Positions 1 through 64,000 of a DNA stretch of 64,000 nt are shown in pieces. The translations under genes and the position numbers were made by a program. The notes beneath the pieces were generated by a model, which was given only the letters and a program-made list of their open reading frames with translations, was not told where the DNA came from and made no database searches. How positions within the stretch are numbered: the first letter of the stretch is position 1; each line of letters opens with the position of its first letter. Source of the DNA: Planctomycetota bacterium (GTDB taxonomy: Bacteria > Planctomycetota > Planctomycetia > Pirellulales > Pirellulaceae); NCBI GenBank assembly GCA_026692845.1, contig JAPLNM010000033.1:44813-108812 (forward strand), given 5' to 3'.

Positions 1-1237
1 CCTTGACCTGCTCGGGCGAGCTATCCTTCCAACGTTTAGCATCCTGTTGCTTGGGATTCACCCCTGCCTCCAGAGGAAACAACTTGCGGAATATCCTGAG
101 CCGGTCATTCCACGTTCCACGGCTCATTCCATACTTTCGCACCACCGCATGCAAGGATTCGTCCAACTCTTCGCTCGTCGTTGGATCGTCCTGTTGCGCA
201 GGCCCTGTGGGCTGTGTGACCTCTGGTGCTCGTTGTGCCTCTTTGGGCGAATCCACTTTCGGATCGCTCGAACGAGCCTTCGGCTTGCTCCCCTTTTTGG
301 CCTCTGGCTTTTCGGTGCCTAAATCGCGATTGGCGCATTCATTCAGGATGCTCCAATTGAGCACCGAACAGTACTTCCCAAGGCTGATCTGCAAGAAGCC
401 TGTATCGCTACAGCGTGGCTTGGGCTCATCCGCGTCTTTCGGAGACTCATCGGGCTTTTCTTCCTTGATCTCCATGGGACTGAGCATCGACTTCTCTGTG
501 AATTTACGCAGCGACTCAACGTCCCAGTCGATCTGCTCTCCTTCCTGAGACATCTGATGGTAAGCTTCCTCGAGCTGCATGTAGATCGAGGTGTACTGAT
601 AGCCATCGAGCGAATTGGTCACCTTGGCCCGAAGCGCATTCAAATCGATGTACACGGCGCAAGTCAATAAATAGGCTTCGGAATGGATCACCGTCATGTG
701 AAAACGGCCCTTCCAGAAGGCTCCCTTGGCCTCCCCTTCTTTTTGTACCTCGGCATTGGCTCGCTTGGCAACTTTTTGCTTGAGCAACTGCATCCAAAAG
801 CTTACGGAACTGAGCTTCCGACGAAGCTTCTTGACCAACGCTTCGTCATTGGCCATCGCATCGATCTGTTCTTGGGTAGGCTCGATCGGTTCGTAGACCC
901 ATTTGCCTTCTACCTTCCTGCGACGCTTGCGTTGCGGACACAGATTCATCCACCTGGTTACCACCTCCTTGGCCGTCCATTTACCGACCACATCGGGCCG
1001 AGTCCGAAGCAAGAAATGGACGTGATTGTCCATGACGGCGAATCGCAGGACATCGATTCCCATGTAGACGGATTGAAAGGACATGATGTCGATAATCCAG
1101 TCCTTGCGGTGCGAAAAGTCTTGTCCCGACAGGGAATCCTTTCCCAGGAGAAACATCTGCTGGGCTACCTGAGTGGTGACATGAACGATGGTCACTTCGT
1201 CAGGAGAAATACGACTTGAACGATTACTACGAGCCAT
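1..1237 (-). CDS. REP-associated tyrosine transposase (RAYT/Y1_Tnp), 3' end outside window
   Basis: This gene is absent from the ORF track because it has no stop before the window edge, but the minus strand is open from the ATG at 1235-1237 to base 1 (about 412 codons). The protein has the HUH signature NHVHF at residues 71-75 and a YIDLN motif with the likely catalytic tyrosine near residue 196, the hallmarks of Y1 transposases of the IS200/RAYT type. These act as single-strand nucleases on palindromic repeats. The C-terminal part after about residue 250 is charged and Lys/Pro-rich. A second transposase at 26972-28204 shares spacing and motifs, with its HUH histidines at the same residue numbers. 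A palindromic repeat array begins about 390 bp upstream. The + strand ORF 683-1219 is its shadow. The family call is firm; mobility or activity is inferred. Confidence 0.85.
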   Translation of the reverse strand, partial: MARSNRSSRISPDEVTIVHVTTQVAQQMFLLGKDSLSGQDFSHRKDWIIDIMSFQSVYMGIDVLRFAVMDNHVHFLLRTRPDVVGKWTAKEVVTRWMNLCPQRKRRRKVEGKWVYEPIEPTQEQIDAMANDEALVKKLRRKLSSVSFWMQLLKQKVAKRANAEVQKEGEAKGAFWKGRFHMTVIHSEAYLLTCAVYIDLNALRAKVTNSLDGYQYTSIYMQLEEAYHQMSQEGEQIDWDVESLRKFTEKSMLSPMEIKEEKPDESPKDADEPKPRCSDTGFLQISLGKYCSVLNWSILNECANRDLGTEKPEAKKGSKPKARSSDPKVDSPKEAQRAPEVTQPTGPAQQDDPTTSEELDESLHAVVRKYGMSRGTWNDRLRIFRKLFPLEAGVNPKQQDAKRWKDSSPEQVK

Positions 1238-1628: not shown

Positions 1629-2160
1629 TCGTGTCTGTCCCCAGTAGCAGCGTTGGGTTTGCTAGCGTTCGGTAAATTGCGCGCCGGGGGCATTTCTACA
1701 GGTGCCTGTCCCCAGTAGCAGCGGTGGTTTGCTAGCATTCGGCAGCTTGCACGCCGGGGGTATTTCGACAGGTGCCTGTCCCCAGTGGCAGCGGTGGATT
1801 TGCTAGCATTCGGCAGCTTGCACGCCGGGGGTATTTCGACAGGTGCCTGTTTCGACAGGTGCCTGTCCCCAGTGGCAGCGGTGGATTTGCTAGCATTTGG
1901 CAGCTTGCACGCCGGGGGTATTTCGACAGGTGCCTGTCCCCTGTAGTAGCGGTGGTTTGCTAGCATTCGGTGGCTTGCGCGCCGGGGGCATTTCGACAGG
2001 TGCCTGTCCCCAGTAGCAGCGGTGGTTTGCTAGCATTCGGTGGCTTGCGCGATGAGGGCATTTCGACAGGTGCCTGTCCCCTGTAGCAGCGGTGGTTTGC
2101 TTGCATTTGGTGGCTTGCGCGCCGGGGGCATTTCTGCCGGGGGCATTTCTGCCGGTGTCT
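1629..2160. repeat. Tandem ~70-bp REP-like array with palindrome GACAGGTGCCTGTC
   Basis: About eight direct repeats of a ~70-bp unit are present. Each carries the palindrome GACAGG-TG-CCTGTC followed by CCCCAGTAGCAGCGGTGG and a GCTAGCATTCGG...GCGCCGGGGGCATTTC segment. Palindrome copies start near 1698, 1767, 1838, 1854, 1925, 1995 and 2065, giving spacings of 69, 71, 16, 71, 70 and 70 bp. The 16-bp step is a local duplication of the palindrome alone. A decayed unit sits at each end (1629 and 2101-2160). ORFs called across this array on either strand (for example 1448-1966 minus) are repeat translations, not genes. The adjacent RAYT suggests these are its REP substrates; this is inference. Confidence 0.9.
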
Positions 2161-26971: not shown

Positions 26972-28204
26972 TTATTGGCATTTGGATGCCGCGATGTATT
27001 TCCTTTGAAGTTCGTCGAATCCAACAGCTTGTTTGCTGTAGAAAAGCCTTGAAACCTTGGTGTTCGACGTGCGTTTGCGACCGAAACGTGCTGCTTCTTT
27101 GCGCATCGACTCAGGGCTTCCAACCCGATAACCCCTTCGGAAGATTTTTTTGAAGTCATTAATCAACCAACAGACATTCGACGGATCCACCCCGACGGAC
27201 TTTGAAACTTCCACAAGTTCCCGCGATGGCGCTAGGGCCGAAGCTTTTCCCGGTCTGAATCGCAAAGACTCCATCAGGATCTTTGTGTACTGATCGAGGT
27301 TGACCGTAAGGAAGCCTTTGTCCGTTGCTCGAAGCCCATTTTTGCTTAGGTGAGAATCCGTGGGATTGACAGACTGTTTTTTGTCGATCGCTAATTGGGC
27401 GAGCCAAGCGTCCTTAAAAACCATACGTCTTTCTGCTTGTTTGCGGGCGATTTCCATGCGTTTCCTCAACTGGGCTTGGGGAACTTCTTTGATCCTCCGA
27501 GCGACCTCTTGGTCCGAGATCGCTACTTTCGAGTAGGCAAGACTTGGGGCCATTTGATTTTGACTACCAAGAATCCTTGCTTGGATTGAAGTGTAATCGG
27601 ATCCCTCAAGTGTCATGGCGATCCCTGCGCGAAGAAGGTTCAGGTCGACATAGGCTACACAAACAAGGATCGCTAAGGAATCCAGTAGACGCTCAGCCTT
27701 GAAGCGACCTTCCCAAACGTGGCCCGTACGACCATCTTCGGCGTTTGCTCGTTTGGCAATGGGCTCGCACAGATCCTTCATAAAAGCTGATGGCGAAGAG
27801 AGTGCCATTCTTACCCGAAGGATGTTCTCAGGCTCGGCAAGAAACGCGAGGATTTGCGCATCGGTAGGATCGATACAGACGAATTCATCGAGATGGTAGC
27901 CAGGATGAAGCGACAGCCACCGGATTGCGACATCTCGGTCTGAAAGCTGCAGAACTTCATCTGGGCAGGTTCTTACCACCAAATGCAAGTGGTTATCCAT
28001 CACGGCGAAGGCAAGGATATCGATCAGGAAGATCGAAGCGAGTTGTTCGATACGCTGCGTGATCCAGTCTTTGCGGTAGGAGTAATCCTTTCCGGTCGCC
28101 TGATCGACTCCGGACAAGTAGGAGCCTTGGACAAAGCGGTTATAGCAGTGCGCAAAGCAGACTTCATCCGGTGGCAAGACTTCATCGCGTCGTGGACGTG
28201 GCAT
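26972..28204 (-). CDS. REP-associated tyrosine transposase (RAYT/Y1_Tnp)
   Basis: A 410-residue transposase. The ORF runs to 28288, but ATG 28202-28204 has an AAGGAGA ribosome binding site just upstream, so this start is chosen. It has HUH motif NHLHL at residues 71-75 and the catalytic-type Tyr in YVDLN near residue 185, closely matching the partial transposase at the left edge (same histidine positions; both have FAVMDNH). The C-terminal half is basic and unrelated in detail to the first copy. A palindromic array (GGTGCCAGGCACC) begins about 190 bp upstream, the same arrangement as the other locus. It appears intact. Confidence 0.88.
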   Translation of the reverse strand: MPRPRRDEVLPPDEVCFAHCYNRFVQGSYLSGVDQATGKDYSYRKDWITQRIEQLASIFLIDILAFAVMDNHLHLVVRTCPDEVLQLSDRDVAIRWLSLHPGYHLDEFVCIDPTDAQILAFLAEPENILRVRMALSSPSAFMKDLCEPIAKRANAEDGRTGHVWEGRFKAERLLDSLAILVCVAYVDLNLLRAGIAMTLEGSDYTSIQARILGSQNQMAPSLAYSKVAISDQEVARRIKEVPQAQLRKRMEIARKQAERRMVFKDAWLAQLAIDKKQSVNPTDSHLSKNGLRATDKGFLTVNLDQYTKILMESLRFRPGKASALAPSRELVEVSKSVGVDPSNVCWLINDFKKIFRRGYRVGSPESMRKEAARFGRKRTSNTKVSRLFYSKQAVGFDELQRKYIAASKCQ

Positions 28205-28386
28205 GTTACTTCTCCTTGGTTCAATTGTTTGTAGGTGTCGGGGGGGATCCTGCTGTGCCGTTGAGGCCATCCACAACGGATATGTCAACCTAGGGGTTTT
28301 GGGTAGCCTGTAGTAAAGTCAGTTTGTTCAGGTGTCGTGACACGTCTGGTCACAGCCTCCGAAACAAACCGAAAAAAATCCCGACA

Positions 28387-28800
28387 AGTTCCCAAAGGTG
28401 CCAGGCACCCTGAGAGTTTGAGCGTTGGGTAAACGTGGATGTAACAAGTTCCCAAAGGTGCCAGGCACCCTGAGAGTTTGAGCGTTGGGTAAACGTGGAT
28501 GTAATGCTGCATTCCTTAAAGTGCCAGGCACCTTAGGAACTGCATTCCTTAAAGTGCCAGGCACCTTAGGAATCGTGGTGCTAGCAAATCGAGAGCGATT
28601 CGTGTCTTGTTGCGGTCTTGGGCAATCGCTTACATTCCAAACCTATGAAACAATTTGCTTTAATACGGTTCCAAAAGGTGCCATTCCCAAAGGTGCCAGG
28701 CACCCTGAGAGTTGCCTGGTTGCCATTCCCAAAGGTGCCAGGCACCCTGAGAGTTGCCTGGTTCCCAAAGGTGCCAGGCACCCTGAGAGTTGGAGCGTTG
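28387..28800. repeat. REP-like array with palindrome GGTGCCAGGCACC
   Basis: Seven palindromes are present, near 28397, 28457, 28521, 28554, 28692, 28734 and 28770. Three unit types occur. The first is an exact 60-bp direct repeat (TTCCCAAAGGTGCCAGGCACCCTGAGAG..., 28387 and 28447). The second is a 33-bp repeat (ATTCCTTAAAGTGCCAGGCACCTTAGGAA) seen twice, itself a longer palindrome. The third is a ~36-42-bp group at 28685-28800. The array lies upstream of the second RAYT gene and inside the apparent 5' extension of the MscS ORF. It is not CRISPR: no unique spacers of constant length separate the copies. Confidence 0.9.
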
Positions 28801-28878: not shown

Positions 28879-31800
28879 ATGGCTTGGATGAACTTTTTGT
28901 TTGTGGTCTTGTTCTGCATACCTGTCGTTGCGCAAGGTACCACGCAGTCGAGCGGCGCAGGCGGGGACAAATCTGCGGGACCGCCTGCCCGTCGAAATAC
29001 CGTCCGAGCGTTGATGGCAAGCCGTCAGGCGTCGGTCTCGGAGCAGGACCCCGCGATTAAAGAAGCTCCTGCTAAAGAGGGTTCTTCCAAGGAGCCTTTG
29101 GCATCGGATGTGCCGGCTGCAAACTCTGCAAACCCTGACTCTTCGGCGATATCGGCCGAATCGGTTGGAGCCCAGCTGCAACAGCTTCAATCGGCTACGG
29201 ACATCGATGCGAATCTCAAGCAAACGCTGACGACGGTCTACGAGGCTGTATTGGCGGAGACGAAAAAACGGTATGAGGAAGACAAAGCGACCAAGGATTA
29301 TCAGGCCGCATTGGAGCTTGCTCCCAGCGCCACTTCGGACTCCAAGCGTCGAAAGGACAAACCGGACTTTAAATCGCTGTATTTCGAGGGCTCGCTGACT
29401 TGGGCAAGTCCTGAGTATTTGCAGTCATTGCAGTTGCAGGTCAATGCGCAGTTGCAGTCGGCATCGAAGAACCGGACGGAGACCGAGACGACGATCGCGG
29501 CGCGTGAGGCTCGCAAGAAGGAGTTACCTCGTTTCATCAACGACGACAAGTCGGCGATCACCAAGCTTAACGAGGAGCTCCTTGCGCCGATTCCCGATGG
29601 GACCGACCCGCGCGTTCGCGAGGCGAATCAATTGCTTATCCGGGCGAAGTTGGCGACGATCAGTACTCACCTGCGGCGCGTCGAGCTTGAGCAACGGACC
29701 TACGAGGCGGAAAACGAATTGCTTCCGCTGCGCAAGGAGCTGTACTTAGCCGAGGAAAAGTTTTATCAATCGCAACTCAAGGAGATCGCTGAGGAACTTG
29801 GGAAGCGTCGCGAGACGCAGATCGGTAAGTATTCTGACTTGTTGGATCGCTTGCGCAAGCAGTTGAAGGTATCTGAGCGGAGCAAGGATTCCAAGGAAGT
29901 ATCCGATCTGAAGTCGCAGATCGTTTCGTGGCGTGAGTTGGTCGGTGAGCAAGCAAGAAGCCGTACTAGGCTTGAAGAGGAGCGCAATCGCTTGCGTTAT
30001 TTGTCCGACCGGTACCGGACGATGGTGGATCGTTTGGGCAACACCAGCGCCACGAGCGATTCGAGTCCGTCGAGTTTAAACGTATCACGGATGAAGAGTT
30101 TGGTGGCGAATGTTTTAAGGAGGCAGCGAGAGGACTTGCCTAGGACGGAGCAATTGAATCGCGAGCTAGAGGATTGTCAGTCGAGGATCATCAGCGTTCA
30201 GTCTCGGATACTGGAGTTGGACGATTTGAAGACCAAGTACGAGAACGCTGATACAGCGAGGGCGACTTCGGCAGAGTACGAGATGCTAGCATCGGAGTTT
30301 GAGACGCTGAGCGAGGATCAAAAAAGAACGTTGCTGTCTGCGACCGAGCGTCGGATTGTCGATGAATTTCGGATTGATGCGAACAATGCGGCCGAGACGC
30401 TTTTCAATCTTGCGGTGGTTTATCAATCCCTTATTGAGCATGTGACGAAGTACCGTAAGTTTATCGACGAGCATATACTTTGGATCCGATCGACCGATCC
30501 TTTTGGATTGGCGGATTGGAAATCGGTAGGGGATCAAACCAAGCGTTTTTTTGACTTGTCGAATTGGCGCGAGGTGCCGTTGCGTATCGGCGAGGACTTT
30601 CGCGATCATCTTTGGGGATATATCGGTACCATATTTGCGGTATTGCTTTTTGCTGTTTACACCAAGCGGATGCGTCAGCAGGTGTCCAAGGCTGGGATAC
30701 TTGCAAGCAAATCGACGACGACTTCTTTTATGCCGACTTTTCAGACGATATCGTTGTGTTTGGTTTTGGCGTTGCCGTTACCGATGATCCATTTGCTGTT
30801 TGGTTGGCGATTGCTATCGATAGCGCATGATGAGCAGTTTCTAAGGGCATTGGGATGGGGCTTATTGGTCAGCGCCAGGTATTTTTTTCCGTTGGAGGTA
30901 TGGAGGCAGATTGCACGATCGGGAGGACTAGCTGAGAGTCATTTCCAGTGGTCGACGCACTCGACTAGTGTTTTGCGTGGCCAGTTGCGCTGGTTGATCG
31001 ATTTGGCGATTCCTTGTGTGGGCATTTACGCGATCGTGGCCAACGGTGTGGAGTCGAAGGCAGAGGAGACATTAGGTCGGGTTGTTTTCGGGGTTCTGTT
31101 GTTTATGTGTTCGATTTTCCTTATCAACACGCTGCATCCTCGGCATGGCGTGCTCCGAGAGTACTTGCGAGCCAATTCGGGTGGTTGGATCGATCGGTTG
31201 CGGTTCGTCTGGTATACGGGTCTTTGCGCATCTCCGATTGTATTGTTAGGGATGAGCTTGATGGGATATCACTACACCGCGACACGATTAGCGATGCATT
31301 TGCATACGAGTTTCATGACGTTAATCGGGATCCTGCTTCTTTATTGCATTATTTGCCGTTGGTTATTGTTGCGCAAGCGGACGTTGATTGTGCAGCAGGC
31401 ACGGCAGCGATTGGAGGAAGCACGGCGTCGCGATACGGATTCGGCCGCACCGATACTTGCCGCAACGTCGAGTCCCCAGGCGGATCCTACGGATTTGTCG
31501 CAGATCAATGCGCAGACGATGCGTTTGGTTTCAAGTACGTTGGTGTTTGCCGCGATCGCCGCGATTGCGTTCATTTGGTCTGGAGTATTGCCGGCGGTTG
31601 GGGCGTTGGATTCGATCAAGCTTTGGACGGTAACGGGCGCGACTCCAGAGGAGAAGTTACCCGTAACGTTGGCGAATTTGCTTTTGGCGATCCCGGCTGC
31701 GGTGATGACGATCGTTGCGGCGAAGAACTTGCCGGGTTTATTGGAGATCGCGTTGCTTCAGCATTTGCCGCTTGAGAACGCTGTTCGTTATGCGATTACG

Positions 31801-32487
31801 TCGATATCGCGTTACACGATTTTGATGCTTGGGATAGCGATGACATTCAATAGTTTGGGGGTACGTTGGGCGAGTGTCCAGTGGCTCGTCGCAGCCTTGG
31901 GGGTTGGTCTGGGTTTTGGTCTTCAGGAGATTTTTGCGAATTTCGTGTCGGGGCTGATTTTGTTGTTTGAGCAGCCGGTACGCGTTGGGGATGTTGTGAC
32001 GGTGGGGGATACGACTGGTACGGTATCGAAGATCCGGATGCGAGCGACGACGGTGATGAATTTCGATCAGCAAGAGTTGGTGATTCCAAACAAGGACTTG
32101 GTTACTGGTCGGCTGTTGAATTGGACTCTTTCGGACTCGACCAATCGCTTGATTCTCGACATCGGTGTAGCTTATGGAACCGACACGACGGTTGCTTGCA
32201 AAATCCTGAGAGATATTTGCATCGGGCATCCGAATGTGCTCAAGGAGCCCGAGCCTACAGCATTTTTTGAGATCATTGGCGATAGTACTTTGCAGTTGAA
32301 GGTCCGATTATTTCTGTCGAGTTTGGATTTGCGTTTACCCACACGGCATGATTTGCTGACCAGGGTGCATGAGCGGTTCAAGGAGGAAGGAATTGAGATG
32401 TCGTTCCCGACTCGGGAGTTGCATATCAAGTCGATGCCAAGGGATTGGACGATAGGTGGCGGGCTCAAGTACAACCCGAATACTTAG
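28879..32487 (+). CDS. Large mechanosensitive channel, MscS/MscK type
   Basis: The ORF track opens at TTG 28618, but the first 87 codons are translated palindrome repeats (KVPGTLRVAW...). ATG 28879 has GGAGG six bases upstream and begins a signal peptide (MNFLFVVLFCIPVVAQ), so the protein is about 1202 residues. After a Ser/Ala-rich linker comes a long charged coiled-coil periplasmic region (about 90-560), then roughly eleven transmembrane segments. The MscS core lies near residues 960-1195, with GVGLGFGLQEIFANFVSGLILLFEQPVRVGD followed by the beta domain (GTVSKIRMRATTVMNFDQQELVIPN). This is the architecture of MscK-like channels, which release solutes on osmotic downshock. Confidence 0.9.
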   Translation: MAWMNFLFVVLFCIPVVAQGTTQSSGAGGDKSAGPPARRNTVRALMASRQASVSEQDPAIKEAPAKEGSSKEPLASDVPAANSANPDSSAISAESVGAQLQQLQSATDIDANLKQTLTTVYEAVLAETKKRYEEDKATKDYQAALELAPSATSDSKRRKDKPDFKSLYFEGSLTWASPEYLQSLQLQVNAQLQSASKNRTETETTIAAREARKKELPRFINDDKSAITKLNEELLAPIPDGTDPRVREANQLLIRAKLATISTHLRRVELEQRTYEAENELLPLRKELYLAEEKFYQSQLKEIAEELGKRRETQIGKYSDLLDRLRKQLKVSERSKDSKEVSDLKSQIVSWRELVGEQARSRTRLEEERNRLRYLSDRYRTMVDRLGNTSATSDSSPSSLNVSRMKSLVANVLRRQREDLPRTEQLNRELEDCQSRIISVQSRILELDDLKTKYENADTARATSAEYEMLASEFETLSEDQKRTLLSATERRIVDEFRIDANNAAETLFNLAVVYQSLIEHVTKYRKFIDEHILWIRSTDPFGLADWKSVGDQTKRFFDLSNWREVPLRIGEDFRDHLWGYIGTIFAVLLFAVYTKRMRQQVSKAGILASKSTTTSFMPTFQTISLCLVLALPLPMIHLLFGWRLLSIAHDEQFLRALGWGLLVSARYFFPLEVWRQIARSGGLAESHFQWSTHSTSVLRGQLRWLIDLAIPCVGIYAIVANGVESKAEETLGRVVFGVLLFMCSIFLINTLHPRHGVLREYLRANSGGWIDRLRFVWYTGLCASPIVLLGMSLMGYHYTATRLAMHLHTSFMTLIGILLLYCIICRWLLLRKRTLIVQQARQRLEEARRRDTDSAAPILAATSSPQADPTDLSQINAQTMRLVSSTLVFAAIAAIAFIWSGVLPAVGALDSIKLWTVTGATPEEKLPVTLANLLLAIPAAVMTIVAAKNLPGLLEIALLQHLPLENAVRYAITSISRYTILMLGIAMTFNSLGVRWASVQWLVAALGVGLGFGLQEIFANFVSGLILLFEQPVRVGDVVTVGDTTGTVSKIRMRATTVMNFDQQELVIPNKDLVTGRLLNWTLSDSTNRLILDIGVAYGTDTTVACKILRDICIGHPNVLKEPEPTAFFEIIGDSTLQLKVRLFLSSLDLRLPTRHDLLTRVHERFKEEGIEMSFPTRELHIKSMPRDWTIGGGLKYNPNT

Positions 32488-51634: not shown

Positions 51635-52894
51635 ATGCAACTGAATATCTTAGACGATTTGCAAACCAAGCACCTTACGCTCGAGGCACGGCTGCGGGTC
51701 GTCGAGCATGAGCGAATCGAGGTTTCGGAAGCGACCGGACGGATATTGGCCCGATCGATTGTCAATTTTCGCGATAGTCCAGCGATGGATGTCTCGGCGA
51801 TGGATGGTTATGCCTTCCGATTGGCTGATCTAAAATTGGCGGATCGGAAAAAAGGGCTTGCTCGCGAAAATTCCAAGGATGGAGATTCGGGTGGGAGTTG
51901 TTTCCAGGTAACTTCGGTGGCTGCCGCTGGAGCCAGTCGGCTTGGGCTCTCAGCCGATACGGCGATCCGGATTTTTACCGGTGGCGTCGTGCCCCATGGA
52001 GCCGACGTTGTCATCCCAAGGGAGCGATGCCGAGAGGAGAGCGACTGCGTCTGGGTGACGATGCCCATCGACGAGATTCCAATCGGATGGAATATTCGCC
52101 GCCAGGGAGAGAACGCCAGGCAAGGGGAGGTTGGGTTGCTGGCGGGTTGCTGCATCGATGGGCCAAGAATGTCATCGATTGTGTCGATGAATCTTGAAGC
52201 GCAGATCGATGTATCGAGAAAGGTTCGTGTAACGATCATCAACACCGGGGATGAATTGAAGGGGATGGGTACTCCGATCGAGCCGTGGCAAATTCGCGAT
52301 TCGAACGGACCTTTGCTCGAGAGTATGCTGAGAGCTTGTCCATGGATCGAATGGACCCGGGTCAGCGCTAGGGACGAACTCGGAGAGATACAAACGCGAT
52401 TGAAGGAGGCGTTGGAGGTTTCGGATGCCGTATTATTGACTGGCGGCGTGTCGATGGGTGATACCGATCATGTGCCTGCGGCGGTTCGTCATTGCGGAGC
52501 GGAAGTGATTTTTCATCGTTTGGCGATTCGGCCTGGCGCACCGATTTTGGGTGCGGTAAGTTCGGCAGGTCAATTGATCATGGGATTGCCTGGTAATCCG
52601 GTGAGCGTTGCGGTGACCTTCCGGCGTTTGGGATTGGAGTTGTTGGATCGCATGGCCGGACGCTTGTCGGGGCGACGGAAATTCAAGGTTCAAGTTGCCG
52701 GATCGGATTCAAAGACGTTGGGGTTGGTATGGTATCGGCTGGTTCAAATTCAAGCCGACGGCAGCGCTTTGTTGTTGGCCAACCAAGGATCTGGGGACAT
52801 CCGATCGCTAGGGCTTTCGGATGGCTTCATCGAGGTCCCACCCGGGAGTTTGTCGCAGGGGATGTTTCCGTTTTACGATTGGAATGCGGTCTGA
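51635..52894 (+). CDS. moeA: Molybdopterin molybdotransferase MoeA
   Basis: MoeA inserts molybdate into adenylated molybdopterin. The track starts at GTG 51557, but ATG 51635 (MQLNILDDLQ) fits the family N-terminus and is preferred; about 419 residues. The hallmarks are present: SAMDGYAFRLADL, GGVVPHGADVVIPRE, the MoCF-type nucleotide block VTIINTGDEL, LTGGVSMGDTDHV, and RPGAPILGAV with LIMGLPGNPVSVAVTF. It stands alone between a sulfatase and a lipase-like gene. A tandem repeat begins two bases after the stop. Confidence 0.92.
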   Translation: MQLNILDDLQTKHLTLEARLRVVEHERIEVSEATGRILARSIVNFRDSPAMDVSAMDGYAFRLADLKLADRKKGLARENSKDGDSGGSCFQVTSVAAAGASRLGLSADTAIRIFTGGVVPHGADVVIPRERCREESDCVWVTMPIDEIPIGWNIRRQGENARQGEVGLLAGCCIDGPRMSSIVSMNLEAQIDVSRKVRVTIINTGDELKGMGTPIEPWQIRDSNGPLLESMLRACPWIEWTRVSARDELGEIQTRLKEALEVSDAVLLTGGVSMGDTDHVPAAVRHCGAEVIFHRLAIRPGAPILGAVSSAGQLIMGLPGNPVSVAVTFRRLGLELLDRMAGRLSGRRKFKVQVAGSDSKTLGLVWYRLVQIQADGSALLLANQGSGDIRSLGLSDGFIEVPPGSLSQGMFPFYDWNAV

Positions 52895-52896
52895 GT

Positions 52897-53008
52897 GGAT
52901 CGGACGGATCGGACGGATCGGACGGATCGGACGGATCGGACGGATCGGACGGATCGGACGGATCGGACGGATCGGACGGATCGGACGGATCGGACAGATC
53001 GGACAGAT
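52897..53008. repeat. 9-bp tandem repeat GGATCGGAC, about 12 copies
   Basis: About twelve uninterrupted copies of GGATCGGAC, the last two or three altered to GGACAGATC. The array starts right after the moeA stop codon. Reading-frame translations (GSDGSD...) in the ORF track are artefacts of the repeat. Its position in the gap before the lipase-like gene could affect transcription of either side, but nothing shows that. Confidence 0.92.
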
Positions 53009-62922: not shown

Positions 62923-63550
62923 TATTTCTTGGCCTCCGTCGGCTTCATGCCGGCGGGGCCATGACTGACGGCTACCGAAGGCCTCGCGACACCCTTCTAT
63001 TTCATCTTTTTCTTCCGCCCGAAGGCGGAAGAAAAAGAAAAGGCGCTCGGGCGGGAGGCGCCTTGGTAGCTGCTTAGTTACGCCTCCGCCGGGACGAGCC
63101 CGACGGTAGGCTTCTTGGCCTCTGTCGGTTTTATGCCGTCGGGGCCTAGACTGACGGCTACGAAGGCCTCGCGACACCCTTCTATTTCATTTTTTTCTTC
63201 CGCCTTCAGGCGGAAGAAAAAGAAAAGGCGCTCGGGCGGGAGGCGCCTTGGTAGCTGCTTAGTTACGCCTCCGCCGGGACAAGCCCGACGGTAGGCTTCT
63301 TGGCCTCCGTCGGCTTCATGCCGGCGGGGCCATGACTGACGGCTACCGAAGGCCTCGCGCCACCCTTCTATTTCATCTTTTTCTTCCGCCTGACGGCGGA
63401 AGAAAAAGATGAAGCTCTCTCAGGGGGGGACTGGTAGCTGCTTAGTTACGCCTCCGCCGGGACGAGCCCGACGGTAGGCTTCTTGGCCTCCGTCGGCTTT
63501 ATGCCGGCGGGGCCATGACTGACGGCTACCGAAGGCCTCGCGACACCCTT
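62872..63550. repeat. 679-bp higher-order repeat block, first copy
   Basis: The block begins in the last 17 codons of the DUF1559 gene (CGCGCTTTAGGTGG...) and holds unit copies starting at 62931, 63117, 63302 and 63485 (the last truncated at 63550). A second copy starts at 63551 with the same gene tail, and its units begin at 63610, 63796 and 63981, each exactly 679 bp after the first copy. The duplication runs off the window edge. Copies differ at single positions, so the duplication is not recent or has undergone exchange. Confidence 0.88.
62931..63116. repeat. ~185-bp multi-hairpin repeat unit (first of array)
   Basis: The unit carries four stem-loops. H1 at 62931-62960 is GGCC(T)CCGTCGGC-TTCAT-GCCGGCGGGGCC. 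H2 at 63006-63037 is CTTTTTCTTCCGCC-CGAA-GGCGGAAGAAAAAG, a perfect 14-bp stem whose minus-strand loop is the stable c(UUCG)g. H3 at 63040-63064 is AAGGCGC...GCGCCTT. H4 at 63082-63111 is GCCTCCGCCGGG-ACGAG-CCCGACGGTAGGC. Other units start at 63117, 63302, 63485 (partial), 63610, 63796 and 63981. Their H2 loops are CGAA, TTCA, TGAC, TGAA and CGAA with mostly preserved stems. Minus-strand ORFs at 62878-63177 and 63557-63856 are repeat translations. Confidence 0.85.
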
Positions 63551-64000
63551 CGCGCTTTAGGTGGAATGGCAGAGGGCTACATTTCTGGCATGCCGGAATA
63601 GTATTTCTTGGCCTCCGTCGGCTTCATGCCGGCGGGGCCATGACTGACGGCTACCGAAGGCCTCGCGCCACCCTTCTATTTCATCTTTTTCTTCCGCCTG
63701 AAGGCAGAAGAAAAAGATGAAGCGCTCTCGGGCGGGGACGCTTGGTAGCTGCTTAGTTACGCCTCCGCCGGGACGAGCCCGACGGTAGGCTTCTTGGCCT
63801 CCGTCGGCTTCATGCCGGCGGGGCCTAGACTGACGGCTACGAAGGCCGCGCGCCACCCTTTTATTTCATCTTTTTCTTCCGCCCGAAGGCGGAAGAAAAA
63901 GAAAAGGCGCTCGGGCGGGAGGCGCCTTGGTAGCTGCTTAGTTACGCCTCCGCCGGGACGAGCCCGACGGTAGGCTTCTTGGCCTCTGTCGGTTTTATGC
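63551..64000. repeat. 679-bp higher-order repeat block, second copy (truncated by window)
   Basis: The second copy starts with 59 bp identical in arrangement to the DUF1559 gene tail (63551-63609, including its stop codon TAG), but lacks an upstream gene. The remainder repeats the unit array to the window end. The DUF1559 tail here is not part of an intact gene. Confidence 0.85.

Follow-up and report, generated by a model that had tools for sequence, protein, structure and literature searches.

The window, a stretch of 64,000 nucleotides that forms part of a 5.24-Mb assembly in 182 contigs, contains two genes for RAYT-like transposases, each with an array of palindromes upstream. An earlier note had placed a second intact RAYT at 26972-28800. 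The gene is indeed intact, with a frame of 410 aa that runs uninterrupted from ATG to stop and carries NHLH and YVDLN motifs; the interval marks a real feature, but one made up of gene and array together, and the gene alone occupies 26972-28204 on the minus strand. The features of this locus (locus 2) are:

26972-28204, minus strand: RAYT-like HUH/Y1 transposase gene, 410 aa (open frame, profile matches, AlphaFold2 model)
27983-27991, minus strand: HxH of the HUH motif, His72 and His74 (NHLH, residues 71-74)
27650-27652, minus strand: predicted catalytic Tyr185 (from the sequence motif YVDLN)
28337-28353, minus strand: imperfect palindrome GTGACCAGACGTGTCAC in the leader, separating the array from the start codon, kept in most P0001-clade loci
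28384-28503, plus strand: pair of identical units, 60 bp each; GGTGCCAGGCACC lies at 28397-28409 and 28457-28469
28507-28572, plus strand: pair of identical units, 33 bp each; AGTGCCAGGCACC lies at 28520-28532 and 28553-28565
28579-28586, no strand assigned: second palindrome TGCTAGCA, its centre about 24 bp from that of the core in the last 33-bp unit
28679-28798, plus strand: three 36-42-bp units, with GGTGCCAGGCACC at 28692-28704, 28734-28746 and 28770-28782
28879-32487, plus strand: MscS/MscK-type mechanosensitive channel gene on the far side of the array (Pfam MscS_TM, 3.1e-78)

Residues His72, His74 and Tyr185 are invariant across 46 aligned sequences. The profile matches fall below their cut-offs, both for NCBIfam REP_Tyr_transpos (NF047646; 2.7e-6, 27.3 bits, cut-off 80) and for Pfam Y1_Tnp (18.3 bits, cut-off 23). 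The AlphaFold2 model (mean pLDDT 85) finds as its best PDB match in Foldseek the E. coli TnpA-REP with a REP hairpin bound (4er8; probability 1.00, TM 0.69 by target length, E-value 1.6e-3), followed by the ISDra2 and IS608 transposases. The TnpA-REP fold predicted for this protein rests on a consistent set of matches and on no single score, and the combination by which TnpA-REP/RAYT enzymes are recognised, a HUH motif and a catalytic tyrosine in a Y1 fold, is present. Close relatives are planctomycete MAGs such as Planctomycetota bacterium ZE-3NOV15-plancto1, whose RAYT is 68% identical.

The array (28384-28798) occupies the divergent gap between the RAYT start at 28204 and the MscS/MscK-type gene. 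The latter probably starts at ATG 28879, and the long TTG-start frame, which extends across the array, most probably has a wrong start. The neighbours of the locus 2 gene differ from species to species. Seven GTGCCAGGCAC cores span 28397-28782 at spacings of 60, 63, 33, 139, 42 and 36 bp, which bears out the three unit types described before; the seven palindromes counted there hold as cores but not as seven copies of the full 13-mer, since five are GGTGCCAGGCACC and two are AGTGCCAGGCACC, which starts with A. The 33-bp units also contain a longer imperfect hairpin, TTCCT..AGGAA. A chance origin of the array is excluded: allowing up to one mismatch the palindrome has 15 matches where 0.94 are expected (0 of 100 shuffles), and 186 dinucleotide shuffles of RAYT upstream regions gave no recurrent palindrome of such kind. 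The leader palindrome GTGACCAGACGTGTCAC upstream of P0001-clade genes is a possible operator.

Exact-pattern searches of the whole genome find 65 copies of GGTGCCAGGCACC, 34 forward and 31 reverse, at about 20 loci, while the reversed pattern used as a control has none. The palindrome is thus both dispersed and adjacent to a transposase gene, two of the properties asked of a canonical REP. Units within one array are near-identical and the spacers are specific to each array, a pattern that fits local tandem duplication after seeding. At the end of one contig (C53) a second P0001-type gene begins, and there too the same palindrome forms an array, with other spacers. Two further contigs (C76 and C49) end in one C-terminal fragment and another two (C74 and C107) in a different one; such shared fragments at contig ends indicate that the assembly hides further collapsed copies. 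An ordinary tandem repeat, grown by replication slippage beside a transposase gene with no functional tie to it, would also yield units that are identical within an array, flanks included. However, the same core has 127 different flank contexts across several genomes, with no conservation of the flanks, and also lies upstream of independent gene copies; slippage as the whole explanation is already disfavoured, and we regard it as very improbable.

Locus 1 has the same overall arrangement with another palindrome, as had been reported:

1-1237, minus strand, continuing 79 bp past the left window edge: locus 1 RAYT, 439 aa, intact in the contig
1631-2134, plus strand: locus 1 array, units of about 70 bp with ACAGGTGCCTGTCCCC and TTGCTAGCATT

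The two RAYTs share 39% identity across their N-terminal halves. The locus 1 array holds seven copies of ACAGGTGCCTGT, with one more elsewhere in the genome, and a 15-bp form is found only in the three genomes of the genus that carry an 81-100% identical locus 1 gene. The locus 1 palindrome is confined to its own array and is not a genome-wide family. A partner repeat scattered through the genome therefore exists for locus 2 alone. Locus 1 would form a lineage of its own, with another site, which did not spread.

To ask whether the palindrome follows the protein, we scored the palindrome class within 700 bp upstream of relatives from the same family, as GGTGCCAGGCACC (CAGGC), GGTGCCACCCACC (CCACC), ACAGGCACCTGT, GGGGACAGACCCC or none, on a tree of 89 RAYT proteins, 87 of them classified. 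On this tree the classes require 18 changes, compared with 41.8 when the labels are shuffled (0/200). For 58 of 62 RAYTs the closest RAYT outside their own genome belongs to their class (28 expected; 0/500), and this still holds for 50 of 62 if only distances of at least 0.4 are admitted. In the five genomes that hold two classes all 14 RAYTs go with their protein clade and not with their genome. Palindromes elsewhere in the genome match the class of the sampled RAYT in 37 of 40 genomes (12/13 CAGGC-only and 25/27 CCACC-only; Fisher p 2e-7), counted after removal of copies beside sampled RAYTs, though copies beside unsampled RAYTs may still contribute. Thus palindromes near RAYTs correlate with the protein phylogeny, where a lack of correlation would have spoken against the idea, and the proposed pairing of transposase and repeat lineages is supported, though locus 1 lacks a dispersed family. 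As far as sequence comparison goes, these data support a palindrome that tracks the phylogeny of the enzyme and not the genome that hosts it.

All four P0001-clade loci of other genomes with at least 700 bp of upstream sequence carry three to six GTGCCAGGCAC, and a fifth, shortened by a contig end, carries one. The palindrome-rich carriers of this clade form one host subclade in an rpoB tree, so that palindrome abundance is not independently replicated. A genome-count correlation (Mann-Whitney p 7e-4) was dropped as independent evidence for the same reason, and an independent-pairs test of it had too few pairs. Two genomes have the palindrome apart from such a gene: one from another genus (G026) has an array of 11 GTGCCAGGCAC cores (locus L163, 3157-4253) with no relative of the locus 2 RAYT within about 3-4 kb of it (8 kb fetched), and another (G089), 80% complete, has 48 palindrome copies and no detected P0001-type gene.

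The correlation could also reflect linkage only, in that a gene passes on as one unit with the DNA upstream of it, in which case the correlation would be silent on recognition. Close relatives do have upstream DNA in common, and the restriction of P0001-clade carriers to one host subclade points the same way. Such inheritance does not account for spacers that vary between loci while the palindrome stays constant, for a correlation that persists at tree distances of at least 0.4, or for the matching copies elsewhere in the genome, and we consider it unlikely.

In sister lineages, at about 40% identity, the genes are present as near-identical copies of about 1.5 kb, with GTGCCACCCAC in strict orientation: 59 forward and 0 reverse copies upstream, 0 forward and 27 reverse downstream, and inverted repeats on both sides of 17 of 41 genes. 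Terminal inverted repeats have this layout, for example those of TIRtrons (PMC3733652). At locus 2 palindrome copies were found upstream of the gene only, with none downstream. Because the sister lineages use the related GGTGCCACCCACC as inverted ends of mobile gene copies, the solo palindromes may descend from transposon ends. Separately, a shorter TnpA relative in Rhodopirellula solitaria (L265; 274 aa) has seven copies of CCGGTAGGAACCGG upstream and is probably a further enzyme-palindrome lineage.

The site itself departs from the canonical REP. As a hairpin, GGTGC-CAG-GCACC, it has a 5-bp stem and a 3-nt loop, whereas canonical stems have 7-20 nt; a longer hairpin, with a bulge, is possible in the 33-bp unit alone. 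The GT[AG]G that canonical REPs carry 0-2 nt 5' of the hairpin is absent at locus 2, and no such foot lies within 8 nt of the stem in any of the 127 distinct contexts, on either strand. Whole array units are predicted to fold as single strands no better than shuffles (z -1.2 to +0.8), and a search for the 13-mer in a collection of papers gave no match. A 5-bp stem is nevertheless enough for one studied TnpA-REP, that of Marinomonas, which acts on 5-bp palindromes (PMC8266576).

The missing foot and the weak folding leave some room for a double-strand operator, bound by a dimeric regulator (the RAYT or another protein), with arrays as regulatory or decoy sites grown by slippage. A short near-perfect palindrome with unconserved flanks would suit that role, as would the position of the nearest upstream site in sister lineages, mostly 62-88 nt before the start codon and often directly before a TTGAC-like box (34/52). 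However, an operator leaves unexplained both the 65 dispersed copies in about 20 loci and the strictly inverted downstream copies of the sister lineages (27/27), and we hold this reading to be rather unlikely, if worth keeping in mind.

We consider it likely that locus 2 is a REPtron-like (or TIRtron-like) module, in which a low-copy HUH/Y1 transposase of TnpA-REP fold, resembling subclass 2.3, works with a cognate 13-bp palindrome. The enzyme would probably recognise the palindrome as a small single-strand hairpin, Tyr185 would nick near it, and transfer of the strands would seed new palindrome copies; local tandem duplication of a site with its flanks would then build arrays with array-specific spacers. 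Besides the missing foot and the weak folding, the confinement of palindrome-rich carriers to one host subclade, the two genomes with palindromes apart from such a gene and the differing gene neighbours weigh against this reading.

Known TnpA-REP/REP systems (REPtrons of E. coli, Stenotrophomonas and Marinomonas) share with locus 2 the HUH/Y1 fold (4er8), palindromes that flank the gene and are dispersed, and a repeat class tied to the enzyme lineage. Locus 2 differs in its longer protein (410 aa, with a C-terminal extension), in a 13-bp site without the GT[AG]G foot and in arrays of uniform orientation instead of inverted pairs. TIRYT genes and TIRtrons (Di Nocera 2013, PMC3733652), in which R. 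baltica is reported to be rich, resemble the sister lineages, with the palindrome as inverted repeats flanking the gene, and GGGGACAG, present in the locus 1 units, agrees with GGGGWSAS, the TIR motif given in the same work; locus 2, in contrast, has a one-sided upstream array and dispersed solo copies rather than paired ends.

The motifs, together with Shewanella-type proteins that are about 40-47% identical over the N-terminal half, place the family near TnpA-Y1 subclass 2.3 (Quentin 2018, PMC6006769). Family and subclass have in common the motifs NHxH, WE and YVDLNP, an extended segment that separates the HUH half from the Y half, and a long C-terminal tail. Specifically, subclass 2.3 has NHYH, WE and YVDLNP in about 325 aa and the relatives' consensus is NHLH, FWEGRF and YVDLNP, while locus 2 itself has NHLH, VWEGRF and YVDLNL in 410 aa, a comparison made by motifs and not with a subclass profile. 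Subclass 2.3 is tabulated as being without REP (PMC6006769), whereas the planctomycete branch has short cognate palindromes; none was seen upstream of gammaproteobacterial relatives. Several RAYT-REP lineages per genome have been described before (PMC3686654, PMC3733652), and the novelty lies in the branch of the protein, in a short site that lacks the foot and in arrays with two palindromes. Paired enzyme-repeat lineages would thereby extend to a TnpA-Y1 branch recorded without REPs, in mostly uncultured planctomycetes. One protein family also holds both states, near-identical multi-copy elements with palindromic inverted ends and low-copy genes with solo palindromes and arrays, which makes the origin of REPs from transposon ends testable by comparison and by exchange of sites between sister enzymes in vitro.

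In many arrays the second palindrome recurs as GCTAGC, often as TGCTAGCA, about 26-32 bp to the left or right of the core. Of the 78 cores in the own genome, 47 have a GCTAGC no more than 60 bp away (2.6 expected), as do 32 of 62 cores from other genomes, among them one of another genus (1.8 expected). GCTAGC is present in the locus 1 units too, despite their different main palindrome. A tentative and somewhat doubtful reading is that the arrays are a two-site element, built of RAYT palindromes and TGCTAGCA in alternation, their centres about 29 bp apart. GCTAGC may serve a second protein or may be a target or cleavage site of the enzyme.

Other repeats were seen in the same genome. CCACCTGTCGCCAGACGGTGG, which can form a bulged hairpin, recurs several times in L059 (about 1170-1400) and L046. 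In the window, a 185-bp tandem array at 62926-64000, whose unit has a long hairpin CTTTTTCTTCCGCC..GGCGGAAGAAAAAG, runs past the window edge, and at 52897-53008 the 9-bp repeat GGATCGGAC occurs about 12 times directly after an ORF ending at 52894.
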